Below are positions 4,405 to 11,597 of a DNA stretch of 11,597 nucleotides, piece by piece. The stretch covers positions 1 to 11,597 of the forward strand of contig NYZA01000020.1 of assembly GCA_002686955.1 (NCBI GenBank), read 5' to 3'. Below the pieces are notes generated by a model that saw only the letters and a list, made by a program, of their open reading frames with translations, did not search any database and was not told the DNA's origin. The position numbers and the translations under genes were made by a program. This stretch comes from Gemmatimonadota bacterium (GTDB lineage Bacteria > GCA-2686955). Positions within the stretch are counted from its first letter, which is position 1, and each line of letters begins with the position of its first letter.

Positions 4405-6072
4405 TCAGGCCGCGCTCTTCGTCCCCTTCTTGGGCGGCGGTTCTAGGTCGAGCACCATGCGAACGTCGGCGCGCCGTGCTTTCCGCAGCACCTTCACCTT
4501 CTCCTCCACAGGCTTGAGATCGAGATCGATGCCATGCGAGGCAAGCTCCCCGGAGAGCTTGTGCTCGATCTGCTTCAGTCGCCGAAATGTGCTTCGATAT
4601 GCCTCGCATACGATAGGGTGCAGATTCTGTCCAATAAAGGGGTTTTGGCTCATCAGCCTGCGCATCCGGTTGCTCGGAACGAAGGTGTATGCGCTCACGG
4701 AGGGGTTTTGCCTCAGCACTTCGCCGCGGATTTGCGAGAAACGGGTGTAGGCCAGAGTCTTCAGGTCTTGTTCGACCAGCCAGACGCTTCCGTGGCGGGC
4801 ATTGAACCCTGGTGCCGACGAAACCTGCGGAAGAAAAGGATCGATCAAGAAGAGCAGATCTGCGCCTTTGTCGATCGCGGCCTTGATGTTGCTCGTGCGG
4901 GTCACGATGCCGTCGGTGTAGTAGTTCCCTTCGACCTCGACACTGCAGAAGAAGGGGTGAGCCGCCGAGCTCGCCTGCACGGCCTGGCTGATCGGGATGT
5001 GCTTGAAATCGCCGTCCCCGAATAGAACATGAGTGCGTCTATCCTGGTCTGTCGCACCAACATAGAGCTCACAATCCAGCTCTTCGAACCGGTTTGTACA
5101 CCCCGGTCTGGAGAACATCTCTCGCAGGAATTCCTCCAGATCAGAGTTGTCGAACATCGGCCCGAGCGCTCGCTCGTACGACCAGAGGGCCGAGAACACA
5201 TTGAGATCGACGCGCCCCTTGACGGCATCGAGGAGATAGGTCGCGAAGTCCTGCTGCGCCATGAGAATGCGCTTGGGAAGCGCGCCGAAATTGAGGTTCT
5301 TCCAGCTCAGCCGAAGCTGCATGGGCCAGTCGTTGCGGACCCCGCTGACATTGGCGATCATGTCGTCGATCGCGTAGCCGTTCGCCAGGAAACCGGTGAC
5401 GATCGCTCCTGCGCTGATGCCGAAATACATATCGAAGTCGCCGACACCGATATCGCACGCGTCATCCAGGCACTTGAGCACACCGAGCTCGTAGTAGATC
5501 CCAGTGATGCCACCCCCCGCCGCCGCGATCGCCTTCTTCCCCGTACGCTTCTTGAGGAGGGCATTCTCGCAGAACGACCAGACCCGCTCGAAGAAGTCGA
5601 CACGGGCCTCTTCCGCGTGCTCCCCCACCAATCGCGGTGAAAGCGAAAGATCGCGAAGGCAGCCCCCGACGTGGCGTTCCCCCATGTTGAAGATCAGGCG
5701 GTCCACACGCGGCTCGTCGGCGTCACCAACCAGCACGGCGATGCGGGCGAAAGGATATGCCTTCTCGGCCGATCCCTCAGCCGCCAAGGCGTCCAGGAGA
5801 GTGTGGAGGGATTCCTCTTGGCTGGCGGCATCGGCCTCATCGTGCGGCAGATGCCTGCAGTCGACGATGATGAGGTTGTAGTAGTGGACCGCTAGTCGGT
5901 CCAGCACCTCTTCGACACCGGTAGCGAAGTCGACGCCGATCTGCATGCCACGCCCCGCCAGCCGGCAGGGTTTCCTGATCTTGATCCCCGTCAGTTGCTG
6001 GATCGACTCGCAGAAGTTGGCGTAGTTGTGCTGTAGCGGTGAGAAGTAAAGCGCGGTCCTGTTGACTTTCAA
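4405..6072 (-). CDS. Patatin-like phospholipase with receiver-like N-terminal domain
   Basis: 555 residues if started at the TTG at 6072, which has GGGAGGAG 5 nt upstream (6078-6085); a TTG at 6105 gives 566 residues but lacks such a site. The catalytic patatin domain spans about 178-410. It has the oxyanion loop GGGITGIYYELG (186-197), nucleophile elbow FGISAG with Ser220, and the second half of the Ser-Asp dyad in YYTDG with Asp387. It should hydrolyse acyl ester bonds of phospholipids or related lipids. No signal peptide or membrane helix is seen. Residues about 1-170 are not part of patatin. They look like an alpha/beta fold with a strand ending in Asp (YNLIIVDCRHL, D71) and a later strand (ARIAVLVGDAD), reminiscent of a degenerate response-regulator receiver. 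The tail (about 440-555) is helical and basic, ending in PPPKKGTKSAA. It is single-gene, convergent with pcm and divergent from the TPR gene. Confidence 0.88.
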   Translation of the reverse strand: MKVNRTALYFSPLQHNYANFCESIQQLTGIKIRKPCRLAGRGMQIGVDFATGVEEVLDRLAVHYYNLIIVDCRHLPHDEADAASQEESLHTLLDALAAEGSAEKAYPFARIAVLVGDADEPRVDRLIFNMGERHVGGCLRDLSLSPRLVGEHAEEARVDFFERVWSFCENALLKKRTGKKAIAAAGGGITGIYYELGVLKCLDDACDIGVGDFDMYFGISAGAIVTGFLANGYAIDDMIANVSGVRNDWPMQLRLSWKNLNFGALPKRILMAQQDFATYLLDAVKGRVDLNVFSALWSYERALGPMFDNSDLEEFLREMFSRPGCTNRFEELDCELYVGATDQDRRTHVLFGDGDFKHIPISQAVQASSAAHPFFCSVEVEGNYYTDGIVTRTSNIKAAIDKGADLLFLIDPFLPQVSSAPGFNARHGSVWLVEQDLKTLAYTRFSQIRGEVLRQNPSVSAYTFVPSNRMRRLMSQNPFIGQNLHPIVCEAYRSTFRRLKQIEHKLSGELASHGIDLDLKPVEEKVKVLRKARRADVRMVLDLEPPPKKGTKSAA

Positions 6073-6077
6073 GGGAA

Positions 6078-6085
6078 CTCCTCCC
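6078..6085 (-). promoter_or_regulatory. Strong ribosome binding site fixing the TTG start of the patatin gene
   Basis: On the minus strand this reads GGGAGGAG, 5 nt before the TTG at 6072. It lies inside the longer open frame that starts at TTG 6105, so it argues that the true protein is 11 residues shorter than the longest frame. Confidence 0.7.
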
Positions 6086-6126
6086 CCCTCAGGTACGCTC
6101 GGCAAGCACCCTTCTTACTTTAGCAT

Positions 6127-6232: not shown

Positions 6233-7240
6233 ATGATTCGGCTAACGATGGAACGAGATCGGTGTGCCGGGCTCTTCGTCGCGGTCGCCTGGACGCTGAT
6301 CTCCGCGGCGGGCTGCGGAACGGCTCCGACACGACAGGCGCGGCTCGATCTGAACGCGGGCCGATATCGCGTCGCGAACGAACGTCTCCACGCGATCTGC
6401 GAGTCGAACCCTTCCCACGCCGAAGCGCAGTGCTTGCTCGCCAAGTCCGCCGTGGAGCTCGGGCACTACGACGAAGCGGCGCTGGCATTGGGGAGGGCGC
6501 ACGAGCTCGGATCGGCGCAGAGCGATGAGCTCGGCTGCGTGCATCGCCGGATCGTTCATGATCTGTGGAACCGCGCGTTGCTGTCGTGGGACCGAGATGA
6601 TTTCGCTTCGGCGGAAAGCGATCTGCGCTTCCTCACGCGGCTGGAGCCGCAAGACGCCCGCTTCCGGAAGTGGCTGGGACTCTCATCGCTGGCTCGGGTG
6701 GATACCGCGGCGGCCGAAGAGGCATTCGCGGCCCTGGGGGACGCCGCAGACCTTGAAACCGTCGAGCTAGGGGTGGCGATCGAGATGGCGAGGGGGCAGT
6801 GGCGGGCAGCCCTGCGTTCTTCGGCGGAGGGGCTGGCCCGCTTCCCGGCTTCCGGGGCGCTGCTCGGCGCCAAGGCACGTGCTCTGGATCACCTCGATCG
6901 GCGAGCCGAGGCGGTCGTCGCCTACGAGCGAGCGCTCTCGGTGGCCGGTCCGTCGCGCGACCTCGAATCGGCCCGGGGCGTGCTCCTGTTGCAGTTGGGT
7001 GATGCTGAAGGCGCGCTCGCGGCGCTCCAAAACGCCGCGAGCATCGCCTCCGATGCCGATCATCCACAAGGGGGAGAGCTCGGCACCTATCTGGGCGAGT
7101 GCCTCGTGCAATTGGGCCGATTCGAAGAAGCTCGGCGAGTATTCGAACGAACGCTGGAGAACGATCACGAGAGCGGCAGTAGCGCGGCCTATCTGGATTT
7201 GATCGATTCCGTGACGGAGCGACCGAATGCGATGCCTTGA
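6233..7240 (+). CDS. TPR-repeat lipoprotein, first gene of the secretion-like operon
   Basis: 335 residues, ATG at 6233 with GAGGA about 11 nt upstream (an ATG at 6248 is possible but lacks a ribosome site). The N-terminus is a lipoprotein signal: basic start, hydrophobic run (LFVAVAWTLISAAG) and acylated Cys28 in AAGC. The mature protein is built from about eight helical hairpins of TPR type, e.g. ARLDLNAGRYRVANERL (36-52), AKSAVELGHYDEAALALGRA (70-89), WNRALLSWDRDDFASAESDL (112-131), ARALDHLDRRAEAVVAYERA (215-234), GVLLLQLGDAEGALAALQNA (249-268) and LGECLVQLGRFEEARRVFER (287-306). TPRs bind other proteins, so this is probably an envelope scaffold or adaptor. It overlaps the start of the giant exported protein by 14 nt, which implies coupled translation and a shared job. 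TPR proteins and lipoproteins accompany type IX secretion components in Bacteroidota; the same role here is inference. Confidence 0.85.
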   Translation: MIRLTMERDRCAGLFVAVAWTLISAAGCGTAPTRQARLDLNAGRYRVANERLHAICESNPSHAEAQCLLAKSAVELGHYDEAALALGRAHELGSAQSDELGCVHRRIVHDLWNRALLSWDRDDFASAESDLRFLTRLEPQDARFRKWLGLSSLARVDTAAAEEAFAALGDAADLETVELGVAIEMARGQWRAALRSSAEGLARFPASGALLGAKARALDHLDRRAEAVVAYERALSVAGPSRDLESARGVLLLQLGDAEGALAALQNAASIASDADHPQGGELGTYLGECLVQLGRFEEARRVFERTLENDHESGSSAAYLDLIDSVTERPNAMP

Positions 7241-10200
7241 CGGCGCGATGACCGGGAGCGCCATTCGGTTTTTCTTTTTCATCGCGGCGATCGCCGAACT
7301 GCGTCCCGCCGGCGCCCAGCCACTGCTGGTCGAGCCGGATCCCCCAGGCGGCACCGTGCTCGAGACGGTGAGAGACCGGGTCTCCTTCCGCACGAACCGA
7401 GACTCGTCGATCGAGGATATCGAATCCTCCCTTCTCTTGCGATCAAAGGCCCTCGGAAGGCTGGAGCCCGCGCTCACAGCGGACCCCTTCGAACCGAATC
7501 TCTACCACCTGCTGCCGGCCATGGGCGCGTGGAGAGCCGGGGACAGAGTCGATATTCGTCTCGCCGGCGAAGGACTGGGTTTCGACAAGGGAGCCCATTG
7601 GTTCGTCGACGTGGCCTCGACCATTTCGGTGACCAATTACCTCTTCCCCCCCGACCAGTATCTGGCGGGGTTGAGCATGGTGGTCGATGTCGGCTACGGC
7701 GATTTCGACGGCGACGATATTACGGATGCCTGCGTGCTAGCGGAAGAGCGAATTGTCGTCTTCTGGGGCCTGCCCTGCGCCGACGGCCAACTGCTTTTCG
7801 ACAAAACAGATCGCTATTCATACGAACTCGTAGCCCTTGGACGCAACGCTTTCTTGAACATCGGAGATCTCGACGACAACGGCGCCGACGATATCTTGCT
7901 CATAACGGAATCCCAACCCGAACGGGCCTTCATGTTGCTGGCCCGTGATCCGGGCTTGAGGCTCTTTCGCCCAATACCGACCAAGCTTCCCGGGCTCGAC
8001 CATGATCCCGTCGATGTGAAGCTCATTCATCTCGACAACGACCAGTACATCGATCTTCTCTTCCTGGCAGACGGAGTCAATCAGCTCAGGACCTTGTCGA
8101 ACAAGGTCGTTGATGGTGTGCCCTTCTTCGGGCCATTCGGCGTTCCGGGACCGATCCAGCTCCCCGCCGATCCACTGGCCCTGGCCACGGGCGACTTCAC
8201 GGTTCCTCCAGATGGGTACGCCGACATCGCTGTATCGCTGGCGACGCGGAGAATCGTCTTCTTCGAAAACCAGAACGGCCATGCTCTGACGGAGAAGACC
8301 CAGGCTCGTACGCCAACGAGCGAAGAGATCGGCGCCATGGAGACCGGCGACGCCGATCAGGACGGCCTGATCGATATCATCGGCATCGAGAAGCCGGCCA
8401 ACACCCGAGTACACAGCTTTCTGAACGTCGCTCAGGATGCGCCCTTCATCGAGAGGTCTCGTAACCTCTCGATCGCACCGCTGACACTCGGCGTGGCTGA
8501 CATCGACGCGGATCGATTCGCGAACGGCATATTCAGCGACGGTTCCAGGCTCGTTGCGCTGGACCGAAACAGCATCGAGCGTGTCATCGCGACGAATCTC
8601 AACGGCGACAAGCGTGGGTTCGACCTGTCCGATGTAAACTGCGATGGTGTTCCGGATCTGCTTGTCGCGAACGGAACCCGCGCGCAGCTCCGCCTGGGAA
8701 ACCCGATCGGATTCGGCGGCGTTCGCGGCGCTCTCCTCAGGCCCCAGCGTCTCTTTCGGAACAGATCTGTTTGTGTGGCGGAGACTGAAGCGGAGACGCT
8801 TTGCGTTGTAGGCGCGTTTTGCCCCGTGGAGGTGACGTCTATTTCGCTCGATTCAGCTGCCACCGCCTCAGGGGCCTTCGAGCTCGATATTGTCCGCGGC
8901 ACAGTCCCCTCGACCTTGCCACCGGGCGACACTCTCTGCGTCGAGGTTCGCCTCACGCCGCTGCAGTCCGGCGCCGCGGTCGACTCCGCTTCCGTTCTGG
9001 TGGTAACCGAGTGCGATACGGGCTCCGTACTTCTCCTCGGCGAGGGGAAGGTCGCCGAGCTTTTGCCAAGTCCACCCTCACTGGGCTTCGGAGATGTCTG
9101 TCCACCCGACACCGCCGCTGGCACCATCTGTTTCTCGAACACTAGCGCCGAGTGTCGCCGCCGCATCGTCGGCGCCTTCTTGGAGACGGTAGAGGAAGGC
9201 CCATGCTCATTCGCGGTCGTTGATCCCCCCGGTGAGACCGATGTGGAACCTGGATCCGAACTCTGCATCGAGATCGAATTCCTGCCGCCGGGTTTCGGCC
9301 TATTCGACTGCAAGTTGGGCTTGGCTCTCGCCGATCCCGTAGACACGTTGCGGGTCCCTTTGAGCGGTCGCTGCAACAATCCTCCGATTTGGTATCGCGA
9401 TCCGAGCGATCTCGAGATATGTGAGGCCGATACCTTCCCCACGCAGCTCCTCGACTACCGCACGAGTGATGTAGGCGATTCGATCGTATGCTATCCACCC
9501 CAGTGGATCGACGGGAGCGATGACCGGATTCTCCTCGACTGGACGTGCGAGGACAAGGCCCTCGCGGCGCGGCACCCGGGCGGGGACTATATCGGTTGGG
9601 CTCTCTTCAGGCTCACGATCACCGACGGATTCGACGAAGTGTCGCGAGAAGTGCGATACGAGGTGCTCGACGTCAACGATCCACCCCTGCTCGATCTCGA
9701 CGGCGCCGCGACGCTTTGCTCCATTGGCTCCGCTGAGATCGACGAAGGCACGGAGATCGTCTTTCGGGTGAACGCGAGCGATCTGGTCGATCGTCTCCCC
9801 CCGCCCGCCGAAACGTGCGAATCACCTCTTTCTTGGGTGGGCGACCCGATCGATGACCCGCGCATTCCGCCCGAGGCGATCGAGCAGGGCGAGAACCCAG
9901 ATGGCTCGATCTACGCCGATTTCCGGTGGACACCGGGCTTCACCGATTCCGGCGACTACATCGTCACTTTCATCGCCTGCGAAGATCTTCTCTGCCCCGA
10001 GAACGTCTGCAATCCGAACCCATCCACCCTGTGCGACACGTTCCAAGTGTGCTTCACCGTACGCGACATCCTCCCGGATCTGTCGCTACGGCTCACCGCC
10101 CCGGTCGAAACGATCGATGTCGATGAGCCCGCCGATTACGAAATCGTTCTGCGATCGGAGCGCGCTTCATGGCTTCACGAGGGTGCGAGCGTCGATGTGG

Positions 10201-10679
10201 AGCTGGCCGGCGCCCCGCTTCAGTCTTGGGAGATCCCGGTTGGGATCCCCGAGGGCGATTCCGTTGTGTTCTCCGGAACCTTCACTCCCCGGATGCCGAC
10301 ACAGACTCGGCTCTCGGCGTGCATTGCCCTTCCCGCTCAGGGAATCGAAGCGGATGACGGCAACAATTGCGACGAGGTCGAGCTGAGCATTCGCGAGGGC
10401 CGACTTCGCGTGAGACCCAACCCGTTCACGCCGAACGCCGACGGCTTCAACGACGAGGCTGAGTTCATCACACGAGAGATCCACATAGGCGAACCGAGGG
10501 TGACGCTCTACGACATCCACGGCCGATCGGTCCGCGGCCTGCGCGCCAATATCGAAGGACGCATCGTCTGGGACGGCCGCGACGACGAGGGCAGGCGCGT
10601 CGATGCCGGCGTCTACCTCTACATCTACCGGGATCCTGGCCATCGCCATTTGAGTGGCGAAATCGTGGTGGCGCGATGA
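7227..10679 (+). CDS. Giant exported protein: beta-propeller, Ig-like domains, type-IX-like C-terminal domain
   Basis: 1150 residues, ATG at 7227 with GGAG 7 nt upstream; the ATG at 7248 is an alternative. A signal peptide runs to about residue 30 (IRFFFFIAAIA...PAGA). Residues 31-130 look like an SbsA-type Ig domain. Residues about 145-490 carry seven FG-GAP/VCBS repeats with Asp-rich calcium loops starting at 159, 214, 268, 323, 375, 425 and 469 (DFDGDDITDA, DLDDNGADDI, DADQDGLIDI, DVNCDGVPDL), as in a seven-bladed propeller. Two ASH/choice-of-anchor-like domains (about 505-715) follow, then cadherin-like Ig domains (about 716-945, with VNDPP near 815) and a CARDB-like domain (948-1055). 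Twenty-four Cys fall between about 510 and 1055, suggesting disulfides outside the cytoplasm. The end (1058-1150) has NPFTPNADGFNDEAEF, VTLYDIHGRSVR, WDGRDDEGRRVDAGVYLY and a final SGEIVVAR. This matches FlgD-Ig/CHU_C type C-terminal domains used as type IX secretion signals. It probably acts at the cell surface in adhesion or binding. Confidence 0.88.
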   Translation: MRCLDGAMTGSAIRFFFFIAAIAELRPAGAQPLLVEPDPPGGTVLETVRDRVSFRTNRDSSIEDIESSLLLRSKALGRLEPALTADPFEPNLYHLLPAMGAWRAGDRVDIRLAGEGLGFDKGAHWFVDVASTISVTNYLFPPDQYLAGLSMVVDVGYGDFDGDDITDACVLAEERIVVFWGLPCADGQLLFDKTDRYSYELVALGRNAFLNIGDLDDNGADDILLITESQPERAFMLLARDPGLRLFRPIPTKLPGLDHDPVDVKLIHLDNDQYIDLLFLADGVNQLRTLSNKVVDGVPFFGPFGVPGPIQLPADPLALATGDFTVPPDGYADIAVSLATRRIVFFENQNGHALTEKTQARTPTSEEIGAMETGDADQDGLIDIIGIEKPANTRVHSFLNVAQDAPFIERSRNLSIAPLTLGVADIDADRFANGIFSDGSRLVALDRNSIERVIATNLNGDKRGFDLSDVNCDGVPDLLVANGTRAQLRLGNPIGFGGVRGALLRPQRLFRNRSVCVAETEAETLCVVGAFCPVEVTSISLDSAATASGAFELDIVRGTVPSTLPPGDTLCVEVRLTPLQSGAAVDSASVLVVTECDTGSVLLLGEGKVAELLPSPPSLGFGDVCPPDTAAGTICFSNTSAECRRRIVGAFLETVEEGPCSFAVVDPPGETDVEPGSELCIEIEFLPPGFGLFDCKLGLALADPVDTLRVPLSGRCNNPPIWYRDPSDLEICEADTFPTQLLDYRTSDVGDSIVCYPPQWIDGSDDRILLDWTCEDKALAARHPGGDYIGWALFRLTITDGFDEVSREVRYEVLDVNDPPLLDLDGAATLCSIGSAEIDEGTEIVFRVNASDLVDRLPPPAETCESPLSWVGDPIDDPRIPPEAIEQGENPDGSIYADFRWTPGFTDSGDYIVTFIACEDLLCPENVCNPNPSTLCDTFQVCFTVRDILPDLSLRLTAPVETIDVDEPADYEIVLRSERASWLHEGASVDVELAGAPLQSWEIPVGIPEGDSVVFSGTFTPRMPTQTRLSACIALPAQGIEADDGNNCDEVELSIREGRLRVRPNPFTPNADGFNDEAEFITREIHIGEPRVTLYDIHGRSVRGLRANIEGRIVWDGRDDEGRRVDAGVYLYIYRDPGHRHLSGEIVVAR

Positions 10680-11597
10680 TGAGGGGTGCCGCCGCGCCGA
10701 TTCTGCTGACCATCGCCGTTTCGGCCGTGTCCGCCCAGGAGCTGCCTTCGGTGCTGCCGATCGATGCAGACGAGGTTCGAGCGATCGCCGTGAATCCCGC
10801 CCTGGCGGCGTTCAGCGGCGAGTATCTCGAGATCGGAGCCCACGAGAGCTTCCTAGGCATCACCTCGTCGACCCTCGGTCTCACGGCGGGTTTCGCGCCC
10901 TACGCCTTCTCCGCCCCGCTGCGCGGCCCCTCGCTGCGCACGAGCCACTTCTCTTCGCACAGACTCGACCGCACCCGTTTCGGAGCGGGTTACGGATTCG
11001 CGCCGCTGCCCTGGCTGGCGCTCGGCGCATCGGTCGACCTCATCGATCTGGGCTACAGCAATCTCGACCTGGTCGACCTCGACGACCCCCTTTTCGCCGA
11101 CGGGCGATCACGAACCGGCATCGGGATCGGCGCGGGCGCGGCTCTGCGCGGCAACTCCGGCTTCACCGCCGGCGCATCGATCGAAGACCTCAACCTCCCC
11201 GATCTCTCCCTCGATCGCAATCGATCCGCCCCATCCGCGGCCCGGCTTCACACCGCGGTGGCCTTTCCCCTGGCCGGCACGCGGGTGGCGCTGGGCGCAC
11301 GCGACATCGAAATCGGCAGCCCCGGTGCCCGCGGCCTCTCCGGAGCCGCCTTCGAGCTCGGCTTCGGCGGATGGCTGAACCCCTGGGCGGGCGCCCGGGC
11401 CTTCGGCGGCAATCGCGGAATCGGTTTCGAGGGCAAGGTTGTCCTGCCTTTTGGAATGGAGTTCCGTTACCGCGCCGAGCAGCCATTCAGCGACCTATCG
11501 AGCTTCTCCTACGGATCCCACCAGATCGCCCTGGTCGGCCTCTCCGATCGCCCGATCCGCGTACCCCGCATGCGTCCTCCCCCCCCCCCCCCCCCCC
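10676..11597 (+). CDS. PorP/SprF- or PorV-like outer-membrane barrel, 3' truncated
   Basis: Open from ATG 10676 (ATGA overlap with the giant protein's stop; ATG 10679 is an alternative) to the window end, 307 codons without a stop, so it is partial. A signal peptide precedes VSA-QE (cut after residue 20). The mature start has the NPA motif (AIAVNPALAAFSGEYLEIG, NPA at 40-42) typical of the PorV/PorQ and PorP/SprF barrels in the FadL superfamily. Strand-like segments follow: RFGAGYGFAPLPWLALGASV, GIGIGAGAALRGNSGFTAGA, FGMEFRYRAEQPF and YGSHQIALVGLSD. The 'GMEFRY ... GSHQIAL' ending recalls PorP/SprF, which in Bacteroidota is needed for secretion or anchoring of neighbouring proteins with type-B C-terminal domains. 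The position directly after such a protein fits. The last codons read Pro from a C homopolymer and are doubtful. It could also be a PorV-type shuttle barrel. Confidence 0.72.
   Translation, partial: MMRGAAAPILLTIAVSAVSAQELPSVLPIDADEVRAIAVNPALAAFSGEYLEIGAHESFLGITSSTLGLTAGFAPYAFSAPLRGPSLRTSHFSSHRLDRTRFGAGYGFAPLPWLALGASVDLIDLGYSNLDLVDLDDPLFADGRSRTGIGIGAGAALRGNSGFTAGASIEDLNLPDLSLDRNRSAPSAARLHTAVAFPLAGTRVALGARDIEIGSPGARGLSGAAFELGFGGWLNPWAGARAFGGNRGIGFEGKVVLPFGMEFRYRAEQPFSDLSSFSYGSHQIALVGLSDRPIRVPRMRPPPPPPP
11579..11597. repeat. Poly-C run of 19 at the contig end
   Basis: The window ends in 19 consecutive C inside the barrel gene. A homopolymer exactly at the end is most simply an assembly artefact (poly-G reads of two-colour sequencing, read on the other strand). 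A real phase-variable tract is possible but unsupported. Confidence 0.9.

Follow-up and report, generated by a model that had tools for sequence, protein, structure and literature searches.

Does a pair of overlapping genes in a Gemmatimonadota bacterium encode a surface protein together with its own outer-membrane carrier, and does that carrier belong to a type IX secretion system (T9SS)? In Flavobacterium johnsoniae, a type-B cargo requires a cognate PorP/SprF carrier encoded downstream (PMC12618676), and physical partnership has been reported for two such pairs, SprB binding SprF and PG1035 binding PorP (PMC9143113). The T9SS is mostly called Bacteroidota-specific in the literature; its presence outside Bacteroidota is an earlier suggestion, one paper naming other FCB phyla as possible hosts (PMC11285876). 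What is new here is the spread of the pairs beyond Bacteroidota, the anchors fused to their barrels, the undetected GldM and GldN, and the linkage to FliF-FliG and MotAB genes. We conclude that the pair probably belongs to a diverged, SprA-based type IX export pathway, the first gene encoding a cargo and the second the carrier dedicated to it.

A putative cargo gene and a barrel gene overlap at the contig end

The window analysed here is the whole of contig C20 (11597 bp), from a 4.28-Mb genome in 270 contigs that is 84.5% complete, and its features are collected in Table 1. The original prediction described a 1150-residue exported protein followed, with an ATGA overlap, by a FadL-like barrel, and both open reading frames and the overlap were confirmed. 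All of the quoted motifs are there: the cargo tail contains PNPFTPNADGFND, LYDIHGRSV, WDGRDDEG, AGVYLYIY and SGEIVVAR, and the barrel carries NPA and GSHQIAL. The junction between the two genes reads GCGCGATGATGAGG, so that the cargo stop codon and the barrel start codon overlap as ATGA, and the two genes are predicted to be translationally coupled. By eye, the better start for the cargo would be the methionine at 7248, which gives a protein of 1143 aa with the putative signal peptide MTGSAIRFFFFIAAIAELRPAGAQ.

The TPR gene upstream of the cargo has its stop codon 14 bases within the cargo reading frame as called. Its product is probably exported or a lipoprotein, judging from an imperfect lipobox (SAAG followed by C), and its placement recalls the PorE/PorW-like TPR partners, whose role it may share. 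At the other end of the pair, the barrel gene is incomplete, as the window is the whole contig and the reading frame stays open to the contig end. Positions 11580-11597 are a run of C coding for poly-proline, and the contig end here is likely to be an assembly break rather than the end of the gene. Elsewhere in the window, the minus strand encodes two further proteins. The outer-membrane protein at 2339-2995 resembles the CarO porin, matching model NF038067 with an E value of 3e-18 but under its cut-off. The patatin-like phospholipase at 4405-6105, whose N-terminal part is long, weakly matches the anti-phage phospholipase model NF053870 (41 bits against a cut-off of 400).

Table 1. Coordinates of the cargo-barrel pair and the gene upstream of it
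Feature	Position	Strand	Basis or remark
TPR protein, 335 aa	6233..7240	+	Pfam TPR_16 E 7e-18
Large exported surface protein (cargo)	7227..10679	+	1150 aa; FG-GAP repeats, ASH/choice-of-anchor-D-like middle, C-terminal sorting domain
Best FG-GAP_3 stretch, residues 329-385	8211..8381	+	Pfam
CHU_C/type-B C-terminal domain, ending SGEIVVAR	10362..10676	+	PF13585
ATGA stop/start overlap	10676..10679	+	sequence
PorP/SprF/PorV-like outer-membrane barrel, N-terminal plug helices and 14 strands	10676..11597	+	at least 307 aa, incomplete
Residues past last barrel strand (SDRPIRVPRMRPPPPPPP...)	11546..11597	+	start of probable periplasmic extension

The cargo tail and the barrel resemble type IX components

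Within the body of the cargo, the FG-GAP_3 match has an E value of 8e-12, and the ASH and choice_anch_D matches are weak (Pfam). The tail had been predicted to be a CHU_C or type-B domain, and the last 105 residues alone do match PF13585 CHU_C above its cut-off of 27, with 32.1 bits (E 1.3e-7); the genome-wide scan gave 31.5 bits. The same residues also match TIGR04131, but at 23.6 bits, under the curated cut-off of 35. The structural model of the domain has a pLDDT of 89.8, and structure comparison placed it nearest to the C-terminal domains of PorZ, NucA and PorU together with some streptococcal protease domains.

For the barrel, the proposed comparison with the PorP/SprF model TIGR03519 gave a match with an E value of 2e-4, although its 21 bits lie far under the cut-off of 90.55. 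A score of 15.5 bits was likewise below the cut-off of 22.3 for PF11751, which the paralogous barrel on contig C40 passes at 28.2 bits, and the PorV models returned nothing at E<=0.01. The AlphaFold model of the barrel (pLDDT 78.6) has 14 strands and N-terminal plug helices, and its best Foldseek match is PorV from a T9SS complex (8gl6_F, E 4e-8). VIA-align cannot tell PorV and FadL apart, as the two tie at Z 24-25.5, but the sequence profile separates them. A profile of 34 pair barrels matched PorV (6h3i) at E 1.4e-15 compared to 2e-5 or worse for FadL-type channels, and by this measure the window barrel is closer to PorV than to FadL. The last predicted strand ends at residue 290. The proline-rich SDRPIRVPRMRPPPPPPP continues past it, so a C-terminal part of the protein is missing, and an extension behind the last strand is likely to run on beyond the contig end. 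No cysteine occurs in the 307 aa encoded within the window, the C terminus lying beyond the contig end.

A rival account would see nothing more in the tail than a FlgD-like Ig domain, and in the barrel a transporter of the FadL type, with the two genes sharing an operon and not a type IX pathway. The tail fold is common to FlgD and the domains of streptococcal C5a peptidase, and the VIA-align tie also speaks for this account. However, CHU_C scores above its cut-off in the cargo tail and FlgD_ig below its own, PorV is far ahead by profile, SprA is present in the genome, and the pairing recurs across many lineages. The original prediction had named a tail resembling only periplasmic FlgD-Ig proteins, together with a barrel resembling only unrelated FadL transporters, as an outcome that would count against it. 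Instead 36/37 pair tails match CHU_C, and PorV leads the FadL-type channels among the barrel matches. We regard the FlgD-Ig and FadL account as very unlikely.

The genome encodes relatives of SprA, PorU and PorV

The search for SprA in the same genome was strongly positive. A protein of 2038 aa on contig C17 matches TIGR04189 at 538 bits (equivalog cut-off 200, E 5e-161). On contig C29, a PorU-like C25 protease of 1640 aa with a type-A-like tail is followed directly by the gene for a PorV2-like barrel, which falls below its own model cut-off. The expected PorU was found in part: the C25 sortase domain is clear (E 5e-71), but the protein reaches 283 bits against NF033707, where the cut-off is 420. 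The sortase and barrel genes on C29 adjoin polysaccharide export genes (Wza/Wzc-like). A PorV-family barrel on contig C159 does pass its model (NF033709, 186 bits, cut-off 90). At least 12 exported proteins in the genome carry type-A-like tails (PNPFNP...SGVYFYR...LLK), and these are presumed to form a sizeable set of SprA cargo. Judged by sequence, the genome encodes the outer-membrane half of a type IX system, with relatives of SprA, PorU and PorV.

Of the SprA and GldK-N core, SprA was thus found, but neither GldM (TIGR03517, a model that may miss diverged forms) nor GldN (TIGR03523) gave a match in this 84.5% complete genome. The positive controls, with GldM above cut-off and GldN detected, were genomes G204, G334 and G063, the first two being Bacteroidota-like and the two strongest SprA genomes. 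With GldM and GldN undetected, the known energy chain is either missing or too diverged to detect.

SprA with no detected GldM is common. SprA_N was found in 96/386 broadly sampled genomes and GldM in 4/386, two of which have SprA, and GldM went undetected in 94/96 SprA-bearing genomes. The reverse is seen in G063, whose complete genome gave matches to GldM and GldN but none to SprA_N at E<=1e-5. SprA also occurs in records named as Latescibacteria, Eisenbacteria, Fermentibacteria, Aegiribacteria, Zixibacteria and Cloacimonadota, as well as KSB1, Calditrichota, Delongbacteria, Kryptoniota and Ignavibacteria. In the nearest genome, from the same family (G001; JALXCG01, submitter label Gemmatimonadetes), SprA is 70% identical. 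Beyond this family, the next level of kinship among the sampled genomes is the domain, and the lineage is thus an isolated one in this set. The scan of genome contigs for SprA, in the SprA-bearing records and in G001, used a 5-sequence alignment.

The pair recurs and follows the type of tail

Two further pairs are present in the same genome, on contigs C40 and C108, and dozens more occur in other lineages. Similarity between the C40 and window pairs is confined to the final ~92 aa of the cargo (34%, E 3e-6) and to the barrel (E 4e-8). Their cargo bodies are unrelated, which is the pattern that mutual recognition of tail and barrel would produce. We surveyed the pairs by searching 386 genomes for barrels and then scanning about 56 loci with local profiles. 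This gave 67 barrels, one locus being counted twice, and for 47 of them a tail-bearing protein encoded on the same strand stops no more than 700 bp upstream. The loci were selected by barrel, which favours partners nearby, and a fair test has to compare the two types of tail with each other. In 46 held-out loci, which were left out of profile building, a barrel directly follows 32/35 type-B tails and 4/24 type-A tails (Fisher p 5e-9). In these loci the mean number of barrel-followed tails under random placement was 1.4, compared to the 32 observed for type-B.

The tails themselves overlap with type-A models, 23/37 also matching TIGR04183 and 32/37 also matching FlgD_ig, and 32/34 pair barrels match the PorV_fam models. 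Together with the PorV-family barrels and PorU-like sortase of the genome, these matches would suit a cargo that is exported through SprA by a common PorV-like type-A carrier, the downstream barrel being a surface anchor or having some other function. We consider this unlikely, since type-A tails so seldom precede a barrel and the window barrel matches only the PorP/SprF model among the T9SS barrel models.

Pair-bearing genomes are strongly enriched in SprA, which was matched in 30/40 of them compared to 66/346 others (p 2e-12). The remaining 10/40 lack a SprA_N match at E<=1e-5; some of these absences may be misses, as scores lie near the detection limit in several pair-bearing lineages. These ten genomes, and the tight linkage of the cargo and barrel genes, might point to a barrel that exports its partner by itself, in a two-partner or autotransporter-like manner independent of SprA. 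Such a mechanism seems highly improbable to us: the FadL/PorV fold is plugged N-terminally and is not known to export proteins by itself, the window's genome encodes SprA, and there is the enrichment just described.

The barrel polypeptide is extended by at least 80 residues in 33/46 pairs, and in relatives the barrel is continued by coiled-coil, TPR or OmpA parts. Among the pair barrels examined, OmpA-family peptidoglycan-binding and CARDB domains were found in G004 and G152, OmpA in G242, and TPR in C40, G059 and G242. By analogy, the fused extensions would functionally resemble PorP joined to a PorE-like anchor. In G004 and G152 the proteins combining a PorP-like barrel with CARDB and OmpA-family parts are ~950 aa long and occur in many copies per genome.

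Motor genes cluster with several pairs

On contig C40 an FlbD-like open reading frame at the contig start is followed by MotA, MotB, cargo and barrel. Contig C197 ends within a gene for a FliF_C-FliG fusion, which, like the fusions clustered with pairs in other genomes, is of a non-flagellar kind. An attempt to join C197 to C40 by sequence overlap found no shared end, and the junction is only plausible for this reason. The MotAB genes on C40 are not those of the flagellum: C89 carries the canonical motA-motB-fliL operon and C51 the flagellar FliG, which makes the C40 genes a second set.

Similar clusters were seen in other genomes. In G339 one contig carries cargo, barrel/TPR, FliF-FliG fusion and MotA up to the contig end, and another has MotA, two MotB, a sensor kinase, three response regulators, cargo and barrel/TPR. 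In G073 two cargo-barrel pairs in a row are followed by FliF-FliG, MotA and MotB. A FliF-FliG-type gene follows cargo and barrel at a contig end in G068, and a FliG-domain protein follows the pair in G260. A pair cluster in G209 with FliF_C-FliG, MotA and MotB-type genes includes a sensor kinase and response regulators, as in G339. On contig C67 of G052, the pair is directly followed on the same strand by one ExbB/TolQ-like and two ExbD/TolR-like genes.

By a rough, post hoc estimate, the 0.68 Mb of pair loci contain 4 FliG-domain genes compared to about 0.4 expected (p about 8e-4). MotA/ExbB genes occur near pairs at 4 loci compared to about 0.9 expected, again rough and post hoc (Poisson p about 0.015), which taken alone is weakly above expectation. 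The clustering of pairs with FliF/FliG-fusion, MotA/MotB and ExbB/ExbD genes is a lead, not proof. The portion considered here of a survey of MotAB and its non-flagellar homologues makes no mention of such clusters (PMC12505986).

We tentatively raise the possibility, doubtful as it still is, that outside Bacteroidota re-used flagellar or Exb-type motors, and not GldLM, drive the SprA pathway and its type-B adhesins. A FliF_C-FliG rotor, a MotA/MotB stator and barrels with periplasmic TPR or coiled-coil parts might then make up a machine in its own right, one that moves or exports surface adhesins. If true, this would be a second, independently assembled engine for gliding or export.

A proposed route for the cargo

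SprA-dependent export with retention by the barrel is our best reading of the pair, because of the domains present, the SprA, PorU and PorV relatives and the recurrent pairing. The cargo would cross the inner membrane by means of its putative Sec signal peptide, and the SprA channel would be the site at which its CHU_C domain is recognised. The barrel, translated from the overlapping gene, would then capture the cargo from the channel through this domain and keep it on the cell surface by non-covalent binding, in the way that SprF holds SprB and PorP holds PG1035. Behind its last strand, the barrel protein may reach into the periplasm, tying the complex to the peptidoglycan or wall, or to a driving machine. 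Homology to SprB-SprF and PG1035-PorP and the pairing statistics make Sec export, SprA passage, CHU_C capture and surface retention the most likely course. Counting against it are the TIGR04131 and TIGR03519 scores below cut-off, the undetected GldM and GldN, the ten pair-bearing genomes lacking a SprA_N match, the selection of loci by barrel, and the incomplete barrel gene.

The observation behind the original prediction is confirmed and its interpretation supported; in particular, a diverged type IX branch outside Bacteroidota is supported by SprA, the PorU-like and PorV-family proteins, the type-A-like tails and the recurrent pairing. SprA without detectable GldM, together with widespread pairs that have fused periplasmic parts, poses a sharp and testable question. 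Are SprA, the carriers and the tails the ancestral parts of the T9SS, and what is the energy source where GldLM is absent? The FliF/FliG-fusion and MotAB clusters offer a concrete candidate for energising SprA systems without GldLM.

Comparison with known systems

The closest parallel is SprB-SprF (PMC9143113, PMC12618676, PMC12635249). As there, a large exported protein ends in a CHU_C-type C-terminal domain, SprA is encoded in the genome, the gene for a 14-strand PorP/SprF-like barrel lies immediately 3' of the cargo gene, and part of the carrier behind the barrel is predicted to sit in the periplasm. Unlike SprB-SprF, the window pair scores below the TIGR04131 and TIGR03519 cut-offs and GldM and GldN are undetected. 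The periplasmic C-terminal tail of F. johnsoniae SprF is used, forming a disulfide to GldK (PMC12635249). The Cys-X-Cys tail of close SprF homologues does not occur within the 307 aa of the window barrel, whose C terminus lies beyond the contig end, and in contrast to the short SprF tail the barrels of relatives bear long TPR, coiled-coil or OmpA extensions.

A similar combination of type-B cargo and PorP-like barrel is PG1035-PorP-PorE of Porphyromonas gingivalis (PMC9143113). It has a TPR and peptidoglycan-binding periplasmic partner, whose putative counterpart here is the TPR gene just upstream. P. gingivalis makes PorE as a protein of its own (PMC9143113), whereas relatives often carry the anchor within the barrel polypeptide and not on a lipoprotein apart from it. 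With the T9SS core of Bacteroidota the genome shares a SprA equivalog above cut-off, a PorU-like C25 protease, PorV-family barrels and many type-A-like tails. It differs in its non-Bacteroidota lineage, in a PorU model score below cut-off and in the undetected GldM and GldN.

The linkage to motor genes is known from other pair loci, the contig of the window ending inside the barrel gene. In those loci FliF_C and FliG form one polypeptide, unlike flagellar FliF and FliG, and no other flagellar genes were seen alongside. The FliF_C-FliG fusions and the MotA and MotB genes that cluster with the pairs nevertheless resemble the flagellar rotor and stator proteins FliF, FliG, MotA and MotB, and their gliding relatives AglRQS.
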